Assembly: GCA_022072165.1 (NCBI GenBank)
Contig: JAJVIF010000001.1
Location: forward strand, 833,353 to 897,352
Direction of reading: 5' to 3'
From: a bacterium
GTDB taxonomy: Bacteria; JAJVIF01
Length of the DNA stretch: 64,000 bases
Position numbers and translations under genes: made by a program. This document shows, piece after piece, positions 33,742-44,561 of the stretch; the stretch's first letter is position 1, and each line of letters opens with the position of its first letter. Below the pieces are notes generated by a model. That model worked only from the letters and a program-made list of their open reading frames with translations, was not told the origin of the DNA and searched no databases.

Positions 33742-34253
33742 CAGAAGCCCATCCCCCCGACGTACAGATTTTCGCCGAAGCCCTGATCCGCCTTCACCAG
33801 CAGATCGTCCTTATGGACAATGAACTTGTCCCGACGATCCATGGCGAGCTCGTAGTTCTGTTTCAGGACGACGGCTTCCACAGGGCAGGCATCTTCGCAA
33901 AAGCCGCAGAAGATGCAACGGAGCAGGTTGATTTCGTAGGTTTTGGCGTAGCGCTCGCCGGGACTCACGGGATGCGCCGGGTCGTTTTCAGCCGCTTCCA
34001 CAAAGATGGCATCAGCGGGACAGGCCGCCGAACAGAGATGGCAGCCGACACAGCGCTCCAGCCCATCGGCATAGCGCTGGAGCACATGCAGCCCCCGATG
34101 TCGCAGTGCGACGGGCTTTTTCTGCTCGGGATACTGATAGGTAACTGCCGGACCCCAGAAGTGCCGGAAGGTGGCACCCATGCCCGACAAAATGGCTGAA
34201 ATCGCAGGACCTGCCTCACGCCAAAAGGCGCGGGCATCGTCGCGGATGGTCAT
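33741..34253 (-). CDS. nuoI: NADH-quinone oxidoreductase subunit I (two 4Fe-4S clusters)
   Basis: 170 aa. Carries the N6a and N6b clusters that pass electrons towards NuoB. Two ferredoxin motifs are seen: CVGCHLCSAACP and CIFCGFCEDACPVEAV. The N-terminal amphipathic region and YPEQKKPV agree with the family. The ATG overlaps the stop of the HEAT-like gene (ATGA), an unusual neighbour inserted between nuoH and nuoI. Confidence 0.96.
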   Translation of the reverse strand: MTIRDDARAFWREAGPAISAILSGMGATFRHFWGPAVTYQYPEQKKPVALRHRGLHVLQRYADGLERCVGCHLCSAACPADAIFVEAAENDPAHPVSPGERYAKTYEINLLRCIFCGFCEDACPVEAVVLKQNYELAMDRRDKFIVHKDDLLVKADQGFGENLYVGGMGF

Positions 34254-35851
34254 GTACCCGGTCCTCCTGTGGCGGTGGTGGCCCGACTCCGGGCGGGATA
34301 CAGGGCGCTCATGCGCCCCAGTCCTGGCACGGGCCAGATGAGACGACTGGCCGGCGGCTGACTCGGCTGGGCGGTGGGATCCGCCAGGGCGATCGCCACG
34401 CCGGCAGCATAGGCTGCCAGCCCGGGCTGGGCCGCCGAGTAGTTGCGATAGTAGCGCACGAGGCTTGGCAGACTGGCAGGGTCCATCAGCCGTCCCAGGC
34501 CCTGGAGACAGGCATACTGCACCCGCACCGGCGGGTCGGGACTATTCAGGATGTTTATCAGTTCCGTCGCTACCGCCGGATGATCCAGTTCCGCCAGCGC
34601 ATTCAGCGCCACGATGGTTTCTCGCCGCCACTGATGATCGCTCGTGCGGGACCGAACGGCCGCCAGCAGCCGCTCCAGCGCCGGGGCGTGTCCCAGCCGG
34701 GCGAGGGTGAGCTGCACGAGGTAGTAATCCTCATCCCCCTGCTGCGTCCCGGGCTCCAGCAACGGGATGAAGCGCTGCGGATCGGCCCAGAGATGGAGTT
34801 TCTGCAGAATCCGCCCCCGGGCGTCGTACTCATTCAGCACGACCTGAATTTCGACATCGCTCAGCGGGAGCCCCAGGAGCCCGAGGGCCTCCAGCGCCTG
34901 CCCCCGAATCGTGGGGTCCGGAGACTGCATCAGCCCCCTCAGTTCGGGTTCCCAGTCGGTGCGATTCAGTTCCTTCGCCATCCCCGTCACGATGATGCTC
35001 GGCAGCATCCGGGAAGGGTCCAGCCCCTTGCGCAAGAAGCGGTCGACGGAGTCCTTGTTGATTCCGGCGGCATAGAGCACTTTCGCGGCGTGATAGGGCG
35101 GCGACTGCTCAGGATCACCGTTGAAGATCGCCGCCAACTCCTCGGTGAAGTGCTTCGCCCCGAAGCGCTCTGCCAGCCGGACCCCCTGGATGTTGGCGAT
35201 CACATCGTCAGCGGCTGTGAGCTTTTCTTTGATGATTGCTTTCGTGGCGGGGAATTGCCGTCGTGCCAGCGCTTCGATGGGCGTGGCATCAGTGATGAAT
35301 TCCTGCCGCGGACGGAACGCCATCTCGTGCAGTTCGCTGCGACGCCAGAGGTCATCCCACGCCATATACGGCTCGAGGATGGCGGTCGTGTCCGCTTCCT
35401 GCTGAAACGACAACTGCTGCAGCGCCATCATGACGACCTGCTTATCGGCATCCTTCAACGCGGCTTCCAGCCGAGGCCTGGCGATGCCCCAGGGGACGTT
35501 AATGAGTCCATCGACCGCCAGATAGCGATCTGCCATGTCCTTATCCTGCAGCGCTGAATCAATAGCGCTCAGGGCTTCCTGGATAGTGGTCGCATTCACC
35601 AGCGCTGTGGTTTCGCCGACCGTTTCCAGTGTCACCGGACCAACCGGCCCCAGGTCAGGGACATCGGCGACGTATCCATCCGGGGACTCCGGCACAACTT
35701 CATCGGTGGCAGTGACCCGTCCACCTGAAGGATCTTTGGTCGCGCCGGGTGGTGGATTTTTCTTGCAGAATCCTCCGCTGCTCCCCTGCGCGAGGATGAG
35801 GACCAGGGCCAGCGAGCGCCCCAGGATCATGCCGCGGTGTCCTCTAGGCAT
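34250..35851 (-). CDS. exported HEAT-like repeat protein inside the nuo operon
   Basis: 533 aa from the ATG at 35851, which overlaps the nuoH stop by 8 nt (ATGCCTAG); its own stop overlaps the nuoI start (ATGA). The N-terminus has arginines, a hydrophobic run (SLALVLILAQGSSGG) and Cys, so it is exported and perhaps lipidated, though the lipobox is poor. A Pro/Asp/Glu-rich linker is followed by helical HEAT-type units such as RGQALEALGLLGLPL, RRETIVALNALAELDHPA and VQYACLQGLGRLMDPA. These are scaffolds for protein contacts. Tight coupling on both sides argues for a role in complex I assembly or stability, but this is inferred. It is not a standard Nuo subunit. Confidence 0.8.
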   Translation of the reverse strand: MPRGHRGMILGRSLALVLILAQGSSGGFCKKNPPPGATKDPSGGRVTATDEVVPESPDGYVADVPDLGPVGPVTLETVGETTALVNATTIQEALSAIDSALQDKDMADRYLAVDGLINVPWGIARPRLEAALKDADKQVVMMALQQLSFQQEADTTAILEPYMAWDDLWRRSELHEMAFRPRQEFITDATPIEALARRQFPATKAIIKEKLTAADDVIANIQGVRLAERFGAKHFTEELAAIFNGDPEQSPPYHAAKVLYAAGINKDSVDRFLRKGLDPSRMLPSIIVTGMAKELNRTDWEPELRGLMQSPDPTIRGQALEALGLLGLPLSDVEIQVVLNEYDARGRILQKLHLWADPQRFIPLLEPGTQQGDEDYYLVQLTLARLGHAPALERLLAAVRSRTSDHQWRRETIVALNALAELDHPAVATELINILNSPDPPVRVQYACLQGLGRLMDPASLPSLVRYYRNYSAAQPGLAAYAAGVAIALADPTAQPSQPPASRLIWPVPGLGRMSALYPARSRATTATGGPGT

Positions 35852-36905
35852 GGGGGACCACCTCCGTTGACTGGGCTCTTGAAGGCTGCCCGGTCGGGCT
35901 GGCGGGGGGACCAATGATCGCGAAGATGACACTCAGGAAAAGGATGTAGACCAGAGTCACAGGAAGGAGAACTTTCCAGCCGAAAGCCATCAGCTGGTCA
36001 TAGCGGAACCGGGGAAGAGTCCCACGCACCCAGACGAAGAAGAACATGAAGATCGTGAGCTTGAGCACCAGATAGATGGGACCCAGCCACGGATAGGTGT
36101 CGACCAGGGGTCCCCGGTAGCCGCCGAGGAAGAGCGTGATGGCGAGCGCACTGATGGTGATCATCGCGGCGTACTCGGCGAGGAAGAACATCGCGAACTT
36201 CATGCCGGTGTACTCGGTGTGGAAACCGGCTACCAGTTCGCTTTCGCACTCTGGCAGATCGAAGGGGGCGCGATTCGTCTCCGCCAGCGCGGTGATCATA
36301 AAGATGACCAGCAGGGGAAACGCCAGGATGTACCACCACCAAAGGCCCCGCTGGGCTTCAACAATGGTCGTGAGTTCCATGCTGCCTGCCATGATGACGG
36401 CACCGACCACGCAGAGTCCCATAGCGAGTTCATACGAAATCATCTGGGCGCTCGCCCGCAGCGCACCGAACAGACTGTACTTGTTGGCGCTCGACCAGCC
36501 CGACAGCACCACGGCATAGACCATGATCGAACTCAGGGCCAGGATGACCAGAATCCCCACGCTCAGGCCAGAAACCGCCAGCGGGATCTGGTACCCGTTC
36601 CAGACAATGGGTGGTCCGAAGGGAATCATGCTGATGCCCGCCAGCCCGCAGGCGACGGAGATCACCGGGGCCAGAGTGTGGATGCGCCGGTCGGCTCTGG
36701 CAGGGACGACATCCTCTTTGAGCATCAGCTTGACGCCATCGGCCAGGGGCTGCAGCAGCCCCCGGGGACCGACACGATTCGGGCCGATGCGATCCTGGAT
36801 CCGGGCGATAACAATCCGCTCGAACCAGGTCATGTACGCCGCGCCCCCCATGACAATCAGGAAGGCAAGCAGGGCTTTCACCAGGATGACCAGCGCCAGT
36901 TCCAT
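35844..36905 (-). CDS. nuoH: NADH-quinone oxidoreductase subunit H
   Basis: 353 aa. Membrane subunit that forms the quinone chamber with NuoB and NuoD. Typical parts are RIQDRIGPNRVGPRGLLQPLADG, the SANKYSLFGALRASAQMISYE block, ETNRAPFDLPECESELVAGF, HTEYTGMKFAMFFLAEY and a RFRYDQLMAFGWKVLLP segment. Starts one base inside the nuoG stop (TAATG). Confidence 0.96.
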   Translation of the reverse strand: MELALVILVKALLAFLIVMGGAAYMTWFERIVIARIQDRIGPNRVGPRGLLQPLADGVKLMLKEDVVPARADRRIHTLAPVISVACGLAGISMIPFGPPIVWNGYQIPLAVSGLSVGILVILALSSIMVYAVVLSGWSSANKYSLFGALRASAQMISYELAMGLCVVGAVIMAGSMELTTIVEAQRGLWWWYILAFPLLVIFMITALAETNRAPFDLPECESELVAGFHTEYTGMKFAMFFLAEYAAMITISALAITLFLGGYRGPLVDTYPWLGPIYLVLKLTIFMFFFVWVRGTLPRFRYDQLMAFGWKVLLPVTLVYILFLSVIFAIIGPPASPTGQPSRAQSTEVVPHA

Positions 36906-39464: not shown

Positions 39465-40862
39465 TTAACTCACGCCTGCCGGCAGGGCAGACACAGTCCC
39501 ATGCTGCGGTAGCAGCGCTGGTCCTGCAGTCACCCAGGGCTGGGGAGTCAGGGGATAGTACTGTCGGATGTAGGCGTGGGCTCCATGCCCCTGCACGAGG
39601 CAGGAGCCAGGATGCAGGATGTGGTGTTCGAATTCTTCCCGCCAGCGCTTGATGGTCGACTGCACCGGCCAGGATGCGGCATCCCCGAAGGGACAGAAGC
39701 TCTTCCCCTCAATGTTCGACGCCGCCGCCACCAGGATATCGAGATCCTCCAGCTTGCCTTCCCCTATGAGAATCCGCCGAAGCATCCGTTCGATCCACCA
39801 GGTCCCCTCAAAGCAGGGGGTGCACTTGCCACAGGATTCATGCTGGAAGAATTTGGCGAGTCGCCAGACCCCCTCAACGATACAGGTGGTCTCATCCATC
39901 GGCATCACTGCACCGGAGCCGAGCATCGTGCCGGCATTTCGCAACGCCTCGTAGTCGAGGGGGACATCCCAGTGCTCCGGACCGAGCCACTGGGAGGAGC
40001 CGCCACCCGGCATGACCGCCTTGAAGGCGCGTCCATGACGCATCCCCTGCCCGTAATCGTTGACGAAGGTCGAGAGCGGGATCCCGAGAGGTACTTCGTA
40101 GTTCCCCGGACGATTCACGTGTCCGGAGAGCGAGAAGATCTTGGTGCCAGGGGACTTCTCAGTCCCGAAGCTGGTGTACCAGGCAGCGCCGTAGCGAATG
40201 ATGGCCGGGACCGCCGCCAGGGTCTCGACATTGTTGATGGTGGTCGGCATCCCGAACGCCCCTGCCTGCGCCGGGAACGGCGGCTTCATACGGGGATGTC
40301 CTCGCTTGCCATCCAGGGAGTCAAGAAGCGCGGTCTCTTCACCACAGATGTAGGCTCCCGCGCCGCGATGCACCACGATGTCGCAGGACCAGCCGCTGTT
40401 GAGGATGTTCTCCCCCAGCAGTCCAGCCTCGTAGCACTCTTTCACTGCGTTCACCACGACGTGGTATTCCTTCCACATCTCGCCCCGGATGTAGATGAAC
40501 GCCTTGTTCGCCCGGATCGCGTGACACCCGATCAGGATGCCCTCGATCATTTTGTGCGGGACCTTTGACAGGATCTCGCGGTCTTTGCAGGTGCCCGGCT
40601 CCCCTTCATCGGCGTTGATCACCAGATAGTGCGGTTTGCCGTCCTCTTTGGGCATAAAGGACCACTTGAGCCCGCAGGGGAAGCCTGCGCCTCCACGACC
40701 CCGCAGGCCAGAAGCCTTCACGACCTCGATGACCTGATCCGGATCGTTCTCCGCCAACACCTGCCGCAGGGACTCGTAGGCCCCGTATTGCCGGGCGACA
40801 CCGAGAGTGTGGCTGCCAGGGATGTCGCGGTACTCAAAGATGGCGAGGCTCGGCTCAGGCAT
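39465..40862 (-). CDS. nuoF: NADH-quinone oxidoreductase subunit F (NADH/FMN site)
   Basis: 465 aa from the ATG at 40862, which overlaps the nuoE stop (ATGCCTGA). The longer frame is not needed. GRGGAGFPCGLKW and the NADH/FMN-binding loop YLVINADEGEPGTCKDR are present, as is GAGAYICGEETALLDSL. The N3 cluster motif ESCGKCTPCFEGT is followed by a distant Cys in SFCPFGDAA. The last 35 residues extend beyond the usual end. It oxidises NADH and passes electrons to the iron-sulfur chain. Confidence 0.96.
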   Translation of the reverse strand: MPEPSLAIFEYRDIPGSHTLGVARQYGAYESLRQVLAENDPDQVIEVVKASGLRGRGGAGFPCGLKWSFMPKEDGKPHYLVINADEGEPGTCKDREILSKVPHKMIEGILIGCHAIRANKAFIYIRGEMWKEYHVVVNAVKECYEAGLLGENILNSGWSCDIVVHRGAGAYICGEETALLDSLDGKRGHPRMKPPFPAQAGAFGMPTTINNVETLAAVPAIIRYGAAWYTSFGTEKSPGTKIFSLSGHVNRPGNYEVPLGIPLSTFVNDYGQGMRHGRAFKAVMPGGGSSQWLGPEHWDVPLDYEALRNAGTMLGSGAVMPMDETTCIVEGVWRLAKFFQHESCGKCTPCFEGTWWIERMLRRILIGEGKLEDLDILVAAASNIEGKSFCPFGDAASWPVQSTIKRWREEFEHHILHPGSCLVQGHGAHAYIRQYYPLTPQPWVTAGPALLPQHGTVSALPAGVS

Positions 40863-42165
40863 TGTTCGCCTCCTCGTCACGCGGAGCTTCCGCCGGGGCC
40901 TCAGGCCCCTGCAGGAATCGCAGGTATGGATTTTCAGGCTGCCAGGTGGGCAGGTCCGGAGCCGTTTCAAGATTGAGCTGCGGCTCGGGCGGACCGACCG
41001 GTTCCGGCTCTGGGTCTGGTACCGGAGCGGGCTCAGCCGCCTCGACCGTTGCGTCTCCATCAGCGGCAGACTCATGGAGCGTCTGGCCGGGGACCAGCCG
41101 AATCAACGGAGGGGCGGCAGAGCCGATGCGCTTGCCCGGCTCCAGCACAGAGAGGTCGACTGGCGCGGCATCAACTGCCGGCTCTTCTTCGGGTTCGGGT
41201 TCGGGCTCGGGCAACGGCGGACGAACCACAGTGAGCTTGGTTGCTTCCAGGAACTTTGCCCGCTCCCGGGCTTCCACTTCAGCCAGCTTCTTTGCATCCG
41301 CCGCCTCGGACTCAAGCCGCAGGGCTTCGCGCTCTGCCGCCCGCTTTGCCGTACGCTCGGCCTCGATGCGTGCCGCATCGGCTACTGCCTGACGCTTCGC
41401 TTCTTCGGCGGCCTGGATGCGGGCGTAGGCCTCCGCCTCGGCCTTCAGCGCAGCCGCAGGGGGTGGTGCATCCGGCGCAGCAGCGATGACCGCGGACGAT
41501 GGGACTTTCGGAGCGGATGGCGCAGCCGCTGGGGCAGACGGTGTCGCGGGGGCTGCCGGTGCGGAGGGCTTGGCTGCTGCTGCTCCCGAGCGGGGCTTGA
41601 TTTCGGCGGGTGTCAGGGGAGCCAGGGGCTCGAAGGCGACGGAACCGGCCCACTCAAGGGGATTGGGCTCCGCCCCAGGACCCGGATGGGTCCCTCCCTG
41701 CCGGTAGTGCGCGATGATCCGGTCGACCTGCTCGATAGTGACCCGCTGGTAGTACTCCCTGTCGCTGATTTGCAGACAGGGGCCGGTATCACAGGCCGCG
41801 AGGCATTCCACTTCCATCAGGCCGAACTGGCCATCCGGCGTCACCTCGCCCGGCGCGATGCCGAGCGTGTTGCGGAGGTGTTCGAGGACCGGATAGGCCC
41901 CCTCCACCATACAGGAGACATTGGTGCAGAGCTGAAAAAGGCACTTTCCCTGCGGCTTGGTGTAGTACATCGTGTAAAAGCTGGCGACTGACTCGACCTC
42001 CGCAGGGTCGAGGTTGAAGAGGTCTCCCAGCTCCGCAAAATCCTCTTTGGCCAGGAACCCTTTCTCTTCCTGGGCGGCATGCAGGGCCATGAGGAGCGCT
42101 CCCCGCTTTTGCGGGTACCGCTGCTGGAGGGCGAGAATCTGGTCGACAGTCTGTTCGCTCAGCAT
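40855..42165 (-). CDS. nuoE: NADH-quinone oxidoreductase subunit E with a long coiled-coil tail
   Basis: 436 aa from the ATG at 42165, 2 nt after the nuoD stop. Residues 1-160 are a normal NuoE thioredoxin-like 2Fe-2S subunit: VASFYTMYYTKPQGK, then Cys80, Cys85, Cys121 and Cys125. The other 270 or so residues are extra. They form an Ala/Pro-rich linker (190-240), a charged alanine-rich helix resembling TolA (239-311, for example AERTAKRAAEREALRLESE with many K/E pairs) and an acidic proline segment (PEPEPEPEEEP). Usual NuoE is about 160-240 aa. The tail stays in frame to a stop that overlaps nuoF, so it is not a sequencing artefact by appearance. Confidence 0.93.
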   Translation of the reverse strand: MLSEQTVDQILALQQRYPQKRGALLMALHAAQEEKGFLAKEDFAELGDLFNLDPAEVESVASFYTMYYTKPQGKCLFQLCTNVSCMVEGAYPVLEHLRNTLGIAPGEVTPDGQFGLMEVECLAACDTGPCLQISDREYYQRVTIEQVDRIIAHYRQGGTHPGPGAEPNPLEWAGSVAFEPLAPLTPAEIKPRSGAAAAKPSAPAAPATPSAPAAAPSAPKVPSSAVIAAAPDAPPPAAALKAEAEAYARIQAAEEAKRQAVADAARIEAERTAKRAAEREALRLESEAADAKKLAEVEARERAKFLEATKLTVVRPPLPEPEPEPEEEPAVDAAPVDLSVLEPGKRIGSAAPPLIRLVPGQTLHESAADGDATVEAAEPAPVPDPEPEPVGPPEPQLNLETAPDLPTWQPENPYLRFLQGPEAPAEAPRDEEANNA

Positions 42166-43494: not shown

Positions 43495-43929
43495 TTACTC
43501 CGGGCGACGCAGCAGCTTTTCGATGTCTTCTATGTGGGCCGTTTCTTCGATGATGATGGAACGGATCAGGTCTTCCAGCGCAACATCCGCCGGGTCAATC
43601 AGCGGCAGCAGATCCTGATACTTGCGGAGGGCTTCCCGTTCAGACTGCAGGTTTTCCTGGAACATCTGTTCCCAGGTATGTACCCCAGGATCTTCCACCG
43701 GATGGACGAGCGTCGTCGGGTGGCCTCCCAGCGCCGTGATTTTTTCGCCCAGCATCGTGGCGTGGGTCATCGCTTCCGTGGCCTGCGTGCGATAGTAGTC
43801 CCGGATGCCAAACCGGTTGGGGCCGAAGACCATGAAGGAATGATGCAGATACCGCACCATCGCTGTCATTTCATAGGCCAGCAGGTCGTTGAGTCGTGCG
43901 AGCAGCGCTTCGCCTGTCAGATACGTCAT
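43495..43929 (-). CDS. ferritin-like diiron protein between nuoC and nuoD
   Basis: 144 aa from the ATG at 43929, 2 nt after the nuoC stop. A four-helix bundle with bacterioferritin-like ligands: Glu20 (AYEMTAMVRY), Glu52 with His56 (TEAMTHA), a Glu in helix 3 (LQSEREALRKY) and EETAH near the C-terminus. The helix-2 pair is spaced ExxxH instead of the usual ExxH, so the iron site may differ. Such proteins store iron or detoxify it with oxygen or peroxide. Its place inside the nuo operon suggests a link to iron supply for, or protection of, the eight or more clusters of complex I (inference). Not a known complex I subunit. Confidence 0.85.
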   Translation of the reverse strand: MTYLTGEALLARLNDLLAYEMTAMVRYLHHSFMVFGPNRFGIRDYYRTQATEAMTHATMLGEKITALGGHPTTLVHPVEDPGVHTWEQMFQENLQSEREALRKYQDLLPLIDPADVALEDLIRSIIIEETAHIEDIEKLLRRPE

Positions 43930-43931
43930 GG

Positions 43932-44561
43932 CTAGCTGTTCCACCTGTCCATCCACTCATCGGCCAGCGACCCGGTGTGGTCGTGGGACTGGCCGCTGTC
44001 GTTCCACTGCGAAATCAGCTTCTGCTGAAAGTCGCGCAGAGGAGCGCCATCGAGGGGGAAATCCCGCCGGAGCGGATACTCGTCGTACATCCCCGGCGTG
44101 AAGAGTCGCCGGAGATTCGGATGCTTTTCAAACGTGATGCCGAAGAGGTCGTAGACCTCGCACTCATGCCACTCAGCGGCGGGATAAACCGCACAGACGC
44201 TGGGAAAATGCACCGGCGCCTGATCCGGAATCCATGTCTCCAGACGAACCCAGGTCGCCAGACTCCGGCAATAAAGCTGCCAGACCATCTGGAACCCTTC
44301 CCCGGACTTTTCCGGCCAGTGGGCGCAGCTCATGAAGCTGAAGTGGTCGTAGTGACTCTCTTCTTTAAGCAGTTTGAGTGCGGCGATGACCGCGCTGGGG
44401 ACCACCCCAATCACGAGGTTGCCCTGGAAGCCCCGCCATCCGACATAGCCCGTTCCCAGGCGCTCTTCCAGGAGGCGGATCTCGGGGCGTTCAGCAAACT
44501 GCTGTTCGTCCTGCAGCGTGATCCACGCCGCCGGCGGAGTTGGTGGGACGTTCGTCAGCAT
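43932..44561 (-). CDS. nuoC: NADH-quinone oxidoreductase subunit C
   Basis: 209 aa. The 30-kDa subunit of the peripheral arm. The diagnostic C-terminal region is WHECEVYDLFGITFEKHPNL followed by RRLFTPGMY and YPLRRDFPL. The N-terminal 90 residues are a typical variable alpha/beta domain. It lies 33 nt after nuoB and almost touches the ferritin-like gene. Confidence 0.94.
   Translation of the reverse strand: MLTNVPPTPPAAWITLQDEQQFAERPEIRLLEERLGTGYVGWRGFQGNLVIGVVPSAVIAALKLLKEESHYDHFSFMSCAHWPEKSGEGFQMVWQLYCRSLATWVRLETWIPDQAPVHFPSVCAVYPAAEWHECEVYDLFGITFEKHPNLRRLFTPGMYDEYPLRRDFPLDGAPLRDFQQKLISQWNDSGQSHDHTGSLADEWMDRWNS

Follow-up and report, generated by a model that had tools for sequence, protein, structure and literature searches.

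A long C-terminal extension of NuoE with a predicted single alpha-helix in a bacterial complex I operon

The nuoE gene described here encodes a complete NuoE domain followed by an unusually long tail (~278 residues past residue 157/158; 311 residues after the fourth Cys), which raises the questions of whether this tail is really a part of the protein, what it looks like and what it could do for respiratory complex I. The window, i.e., the whole stretch of DNA analyzed (64,000 nucleotides), carries a nuo operon on the minus strand in the order nuoA, nuoB, nuoC, a ferritin-like gene, nuoD, nuoE, nuoF, nuoG, nuoH, a HEAT-repeat protein gene, nuoI, nuoJ and onward, in which nuoB, nuoC, nuoD, nuoF and nuoG were confirmed by Pfam and nuoA, nuoH, nuoI and nuoJ were read from open reading frames (ORFs). 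The ferritin-like protein (PF00210, 1.6e-25; 43495-43956, minus strand) is an unusual insertion in a nuo operon, and the HEAT-repeat protein (PF13646, 1.2e-18; 34250-35932, minus strand) has a signal-like N-terminus.

Membership of nuoE in this operon is clear from the adjoining nuoD and nuoF genes, with only 2 nt between the nuoD stop codon and the nuoE start codon. The gene is a single open frame of 436 codons, from ATG at 42165 to TGA at 40855. Residues 14-154 match the 2Fe-2S_thioredx family (PF01257, 2.8e-44), residues 13-155 score above the cut-off of the nuoE_fam model TIGR01958 (147.7 bits vs 142.4), and Cys80, Cys85, Cys121 and Cys125 are invariant across an alignment of 47 NuoE sequences, all of which bears out the complete 2Fe-2S domain that a preliminary description of this DNA had claimed. 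The four Cys residues in the thioredoxin-like fold domain of NuoE are the ligands of cluster N1a. In our best explanation, this protein is a functional and otherwise ordinary complex I NuoE that carries a lineage-specific C-terminal extension within one translated chain.

Table 1. Location of nuoE, its predicted segments and nuoF in the window
Feature	Position	Strand	Basis
nuoE, 436 aa, NADH-quinone oxidoreductase subunit E with C-terminal extension	40855..42165	-	Open frame, Pfam, TIGR01958
NuoE thioredoxin-like [2Fe-2S] core, residues 1-157, Cys80/85/121/125	41695..42165	-	Pfam 14-154, invariant Cys, pLDDT 87-98
Ala/Pro linker, residues 158-236	41458..41694	-	pLDDT ~42-58 from residue 161, rising only beside the helix
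Predicted single long charged Ala-rich alpha-helix, residues 237-310, ~11 nm	41236..41457	-	pLDDT 93-98, no heptad, ion-pair enrichment
Acidic Pro/Glu-rich segment, residues 315-436, net charge -20	40858..41223	-	Composition, pLDDT
nuoF, 465 aa, start codon overlapping the end of the NuoE tail by 8 nt	39465..40862	-	

A tail that is unique to one lineage and differs in composition from the core might be suspected to be no part of NuoE at all but the product of a frameshift, a misassembly or a separate gene. The tail frame (residues ~160-436, 41688-40855) contains no stop codon, compared with 4 and 11 in the other two frames of the same strand, and its coding score (trained on 214 ORFs) is higher than that of any of the other five frames (0.108 vs -0.02 to -0.51) and in the range of the training genes (0.14 +/- 0.06). 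Synonymous codons in all segments of NuoE are used nearly as predicted from genome usage. There is no ATG in the tail frame, and its GTG/TTG codons (297, 313, 318, 340, and 354) have no obvious Shine-Dalgarno sequence upstream, so a hidden second gene within the tail is unlikely. Moreover, the nuoF Shine-Dalgarno sequence (GAGGAGG) and ATG sit within the last codons of the tail, and the genome is assembled in 4 contigs and is 99.1% complete. Considering the uninterrupted frame that runs into the nuoF start, the coding-like codon usage, the missing start signals and the quality of the assembly, we rejected a frameshift or a separate gene, and a tail that is no part of NuoE appears extremely improbable. 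The fusion of the tail to NuoE in one frame and its extension up to a coupled nuoF start, as had been described, were thus both confirmed, and no frame break was seen in the sequence. An antisense frame of 394 codons (40807-41991, plus strand) is also open across the tail, but with a low coding score (-0.02) that fits a GC-rich shadow ORF.

The layout of the tail in three parts (an Ala/Pro linker, a charged Ala-rich helix and a PE-rich acidic segment), which had been read from the letters, was supported by both composition and an AlphaFold2 model built with 47 NuoE rows in the alignment. The core was modeled with pLDDT of 87-98, the linker (~161-230) with low confidence and the flanks of the helix mostly below 60, whereas an uninterrupted helix of 74 residues (237-310; ~11 nm) was predicted with pLDDT of 93-98, a value that reflects this one sequence because the remaining rows of the alignment do not extend over the helix. 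The segment after the helix was again of low confidence except for a short helix (413-418, pLDDT ~60), and the model suggests that the segments on both sides of the long helix are probably disordered. An Ala-rich helix is therefore predicted where it had been proposed, but its boundaries move from 239-311 to 237-310. Residues 239-314 contain 32% Ala and no Pro and are charge-balanced (16 positive and 16 negative residues); residues 315-436 contain 26 D/E, 6 K/R and 23% Pro, giving the net charge of -20. Near the end of the protein lies a lone aromatic cluster, W408..Y414..F417 (LPTWQPENPYLRFLQ), which is weakly non-random (p ~0.015-0.04, assessed post hoc) and may possibly be a short docking motif.

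Not all of the tail is unusual. Its first 15 to 30 residues align with the C-terminus of NDUFV2, to approximately residue 175 (PGP...EPAG vs PGP...LEWAG), and may be regarded as the ordinary short C-terminal extension of NDUFV2/NuoE. Thus, although an in-frame extension spanning residues ~158-436 is real, the truly extra part is nearer to 250 residues than to the ~270 first estimated.

The helix had been labeled a coiled coil, which would imply a different role for the tail: dimerizing complex I or joining it to another coiled-coil protein. The helix is indeed long, charged and Ala-rich, and Alacoil-type pairs are possible for Ala-rich helices (PMC5347031). However, no hydrophobic heptad or hendecad seam was found in it, with or without counting Ala (p 0.09-0.46 vs shuffles), while GCN4, the positive control, was detected by the same test (p 0.002); the period-3.5 power of the helix is also low. 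Instead, pairs of opposite charges at i,i+3/i+4 are in excess (21 vs 13.4 expected, p 0.006) and pairs of like charges are depleted (7 vs 12.5 expected, p 0.034). Single alpha-helices have been described as showing this pattern (PMC5347031), and the sequence has the features of the ER/K-type single alpha-helix (SAH), i.e., it is long and Pro-free, with an excess of ion pairs and no seam. The lack of a seam together with enriched ion pairing points to a monomeric single helix, and residues 237-310 probably form such a helix of ~11 nm according to sequence and model. We therefore did not retain the coiled-coil label, and a dimeric or trimeric coiled coil seems very unlikely.

How widespread is this tail? 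No comparable tail was present in three other genomes of the class, whose NuoE-type genes were read; the longest extra part in these relatives is a different C-terminal domain, zinc-ribbon-like, of ~130 residues with CxxC pairs (L088 and L092; G001 and G003). Among ~150 listed NuoE-type matches from 385 genomes, none of those inspected had a tail to equal it. The number of residues after the fourth Cys is usually ~29, compared with 311 here, and the next longest inspected value is 118 (G265), setting aside NuoE-NuoF fusions and the zinc-ribbon-like domain of the class relatives. Inspection covered most of the listed matches with an open frame longer than 206 aa (G102 and G354 being among those left out), and frames of 206 aa or less have no room for a tail of more than ~60 residues. 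The suggested check for the tail in homologues did not reveal a conserved extension: no homologous tail was found in any genome searched, no relatives of it in the collections of genome contigs and viral contigs, and the plasmid matches to NuoE (25 listed) end at residue 169 or earlier. Within its own genome, only one low-complexity match was found (E 0.02); it contains a stop codon, and the idea that further proteins encoded here share the tail was rejected. Among 346 sampled ORFs (~464 kb of the genome), the helix is the strongest Ala/charged Pro-free helix, with one other, weaker ORF passing the same threshold. The tail is probably a lineage-specific extension, and no dedicated study of NuoE tails was found in the literature searched.

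Domain II of TolA is a long charged Ala-rich helix, and the PE-rich stretch recalls the Pro-rich spacers of TonB. The likeness to these periplasmic and unrelated proteins lies in composition only: no TolA match was found in Pfam, NCBIfam or PDB sequences, and the tail gave only chance low-complexity matches to PDB sequences. Hence the earlier term TolA-like can be kept for composition and does not express a sequence relation.

NuoE tails as such are already known, and the version here, with a single helix and an acidic end, differs from them. The alphaproteobacterial NuoE family PRK12373 (NF009040; 400 aa) also has a complete NuoE domain followed, at the same position, by an Ala/Pro/Glu-rich tail of ~230 residues; however, the last part of that tail is a module to which L21, S2 and phasin models also match, whereas the present NuoE has a long single helix instead. 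Against NF009040, the present protein scores 96.2 bits, far below the cut-off of 514, and the match ends at query residue 296 in the low-complexity part, which places it outside this family. An Alterinioella protein (L046; 5917-7116, plus strand) matches PRK12373 over its full length, and the end of its tail also matches the NCBIfam models of ribosomal proteins L21 and S2 and of phasin, as though a single C-terminal module had been joined to various proteins without a common origin (NuoE, L21, S2, and phasin).

Structures of complex I provide further parallels. The C-terminus of Paracoccus denitrificans NuoE (Pd-NDUFV2) overlies the NDUFV3 site, and core-subunit extensions stand in for NDUFS4/NDUFS6 in other lineages (PMC11522691). 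The Paracoccus extension belongs to the same subunit and the same tip of the NADH module as the tail here; it is ordered, lies partly over the NDUFV3 site and makes the subunit 29 residues longer than mammalian NDUFV2, whereas the present tail is several times longer and has a helix and an acidic end (PMC11522691). NDUFV3 itself adjoins NDUFV1 and NDUFV2, and its 50-kDa isoform contains a large insertion predicted to be disordered (PMC5293009). Like the tail here, this long isoform (NDUFV3-L) adds a large and for the most part disordered stretch at the cleft between NDUFV1 and NDUFV2, but it is a separate, animal-specific and substoichiometric subunit arising from alternative splicing, with no sequence relation to the tail shown (PMC5293009). 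In Escherichia coli, the tails of NuoB, NuoI and NuoF (22-45 residues) and the G-loop of NuoG (94 residues) strap the peripheral arm; these are also lineage-specific extensions of peripheral-arm core subunits, but they are on other subunits and have little secondary structure, and E. coli NuoE (166 aa) is tail-less (PMC8357420). In mycobacteria, an insertion in NuoD docks a response regulator, which is often operon-linked (PMC9274095).

Based on these parallels, we propose that the first 15-30 residues of the tail would pack against the surface of NuoE and NuoF where the NADH module has its tip, in the manner of NDUFV2 and the NuoE of Paracoccus, that the Ala/Pro linker would free the stiff helix of ~11 nm, and that this helix would serve as a spacer holding the acidic end off the enzyme. 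The acidic end, perhaps via the aromatic cluster in LPTWQPENPYLRFLQ, might then dock a soluble partner or pack back on the arm to stabilize the N-module, and the cytoplasmic ferritin-like protein of the same operon would be the first candidate partner. The HEAT-repeat protein is an unlikely partner because its signal-like N-terminus suggests that it is exported. In this proposal, the geometry of the tail follows from sequence and structure prediction, its attachment at the NADH tip from homology, including the alignment of the tail start with the NDUFV2 C-terminus, and a partner or strap role is inferred. The earlier suggestion that the tail projects from the tip of the NADH arm is plausible in that NuoE belongs to the peripheral arm and its extension in Paracoccus is found at the NDUFV3 site (PMC11522691), but the first 15-30 residues probably pack on the module.

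A lineage-specific arm for stabilization or docking, taken broadly, may be right or wrong with about equal probability. Its narrower form, in which a docking arm would be the built-in equivalent of NDUFV3-L and the 11-nm helix would hold out an acidic end with an aromatic tip and so bring a soluble partner (for example, the ferritin-like protein or an enzyme that produces NADH) to the tip of complex I where NADH is oxidized, is rather unlikely. The whole tail could also be a strap only, folding back on the peripheral arm to reinforce the contact between NuoEFG and NuoICDB in place of accessory subunits and with no outside partner. Such a role is known for the E. coli NuoB, NuoI and NuoF tails and the G-loop (PMC8357420) and fits the replacement of NDUFS4/NDUFS6 in other lineages (PMC11522691); however, an 11-nm helix whose prediction is highly confident in isolation and which has no hydrophobic face would make a poor strap, and the E. 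coli straps are 22-45 residues long and mostly without secondary structure. Alternatively, the tail might be a neutral low-complexity outgrowth (an entropic bristle) without specific function, expanded through slippage at repeats of a GC-rich genome. Its low-complexity composition, the lack of homologues and its absence from class relatives agree with this, and the unrelated A/P/E-rich tail of alphaproteobacterial NuoE implies that the NuoE end tolerates extensions, whereas the length of the helix and the significant order of its charge pairs, the rarity of such a tail among the sampled ORFs of the genome and the cost of adding 275 residues to a core subunit of an enzyme argue against it. We weighted the strap and the neutral outgrowth equally, each as improbable, and ahead of a true coiled coil.

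Complex I core subunits gain lineage-specific extensions that act as straps of the peripheral arm or as docking sites for regulators. If NuoE does carry a stiff helical spacer with an acidic end, no other extension of this kind in the survey would be as long. Should the tail bind a partner, one could test directly whether redox proteins or those producing NADH are scaffolded at complex I in bacteria; should it be neutral, it would be a measure of how freely the C-terminal end of NuoE tolerates extensions. The same genome also encodes a second NuoE-like domain (L002; G000:C1:671811-672257 and downstream, minus strand), fused in frame to a NuoF-like domain in an open frame of 634 aa, which may belong to a further NAD-linked dehydrogenase or hydrogenase.
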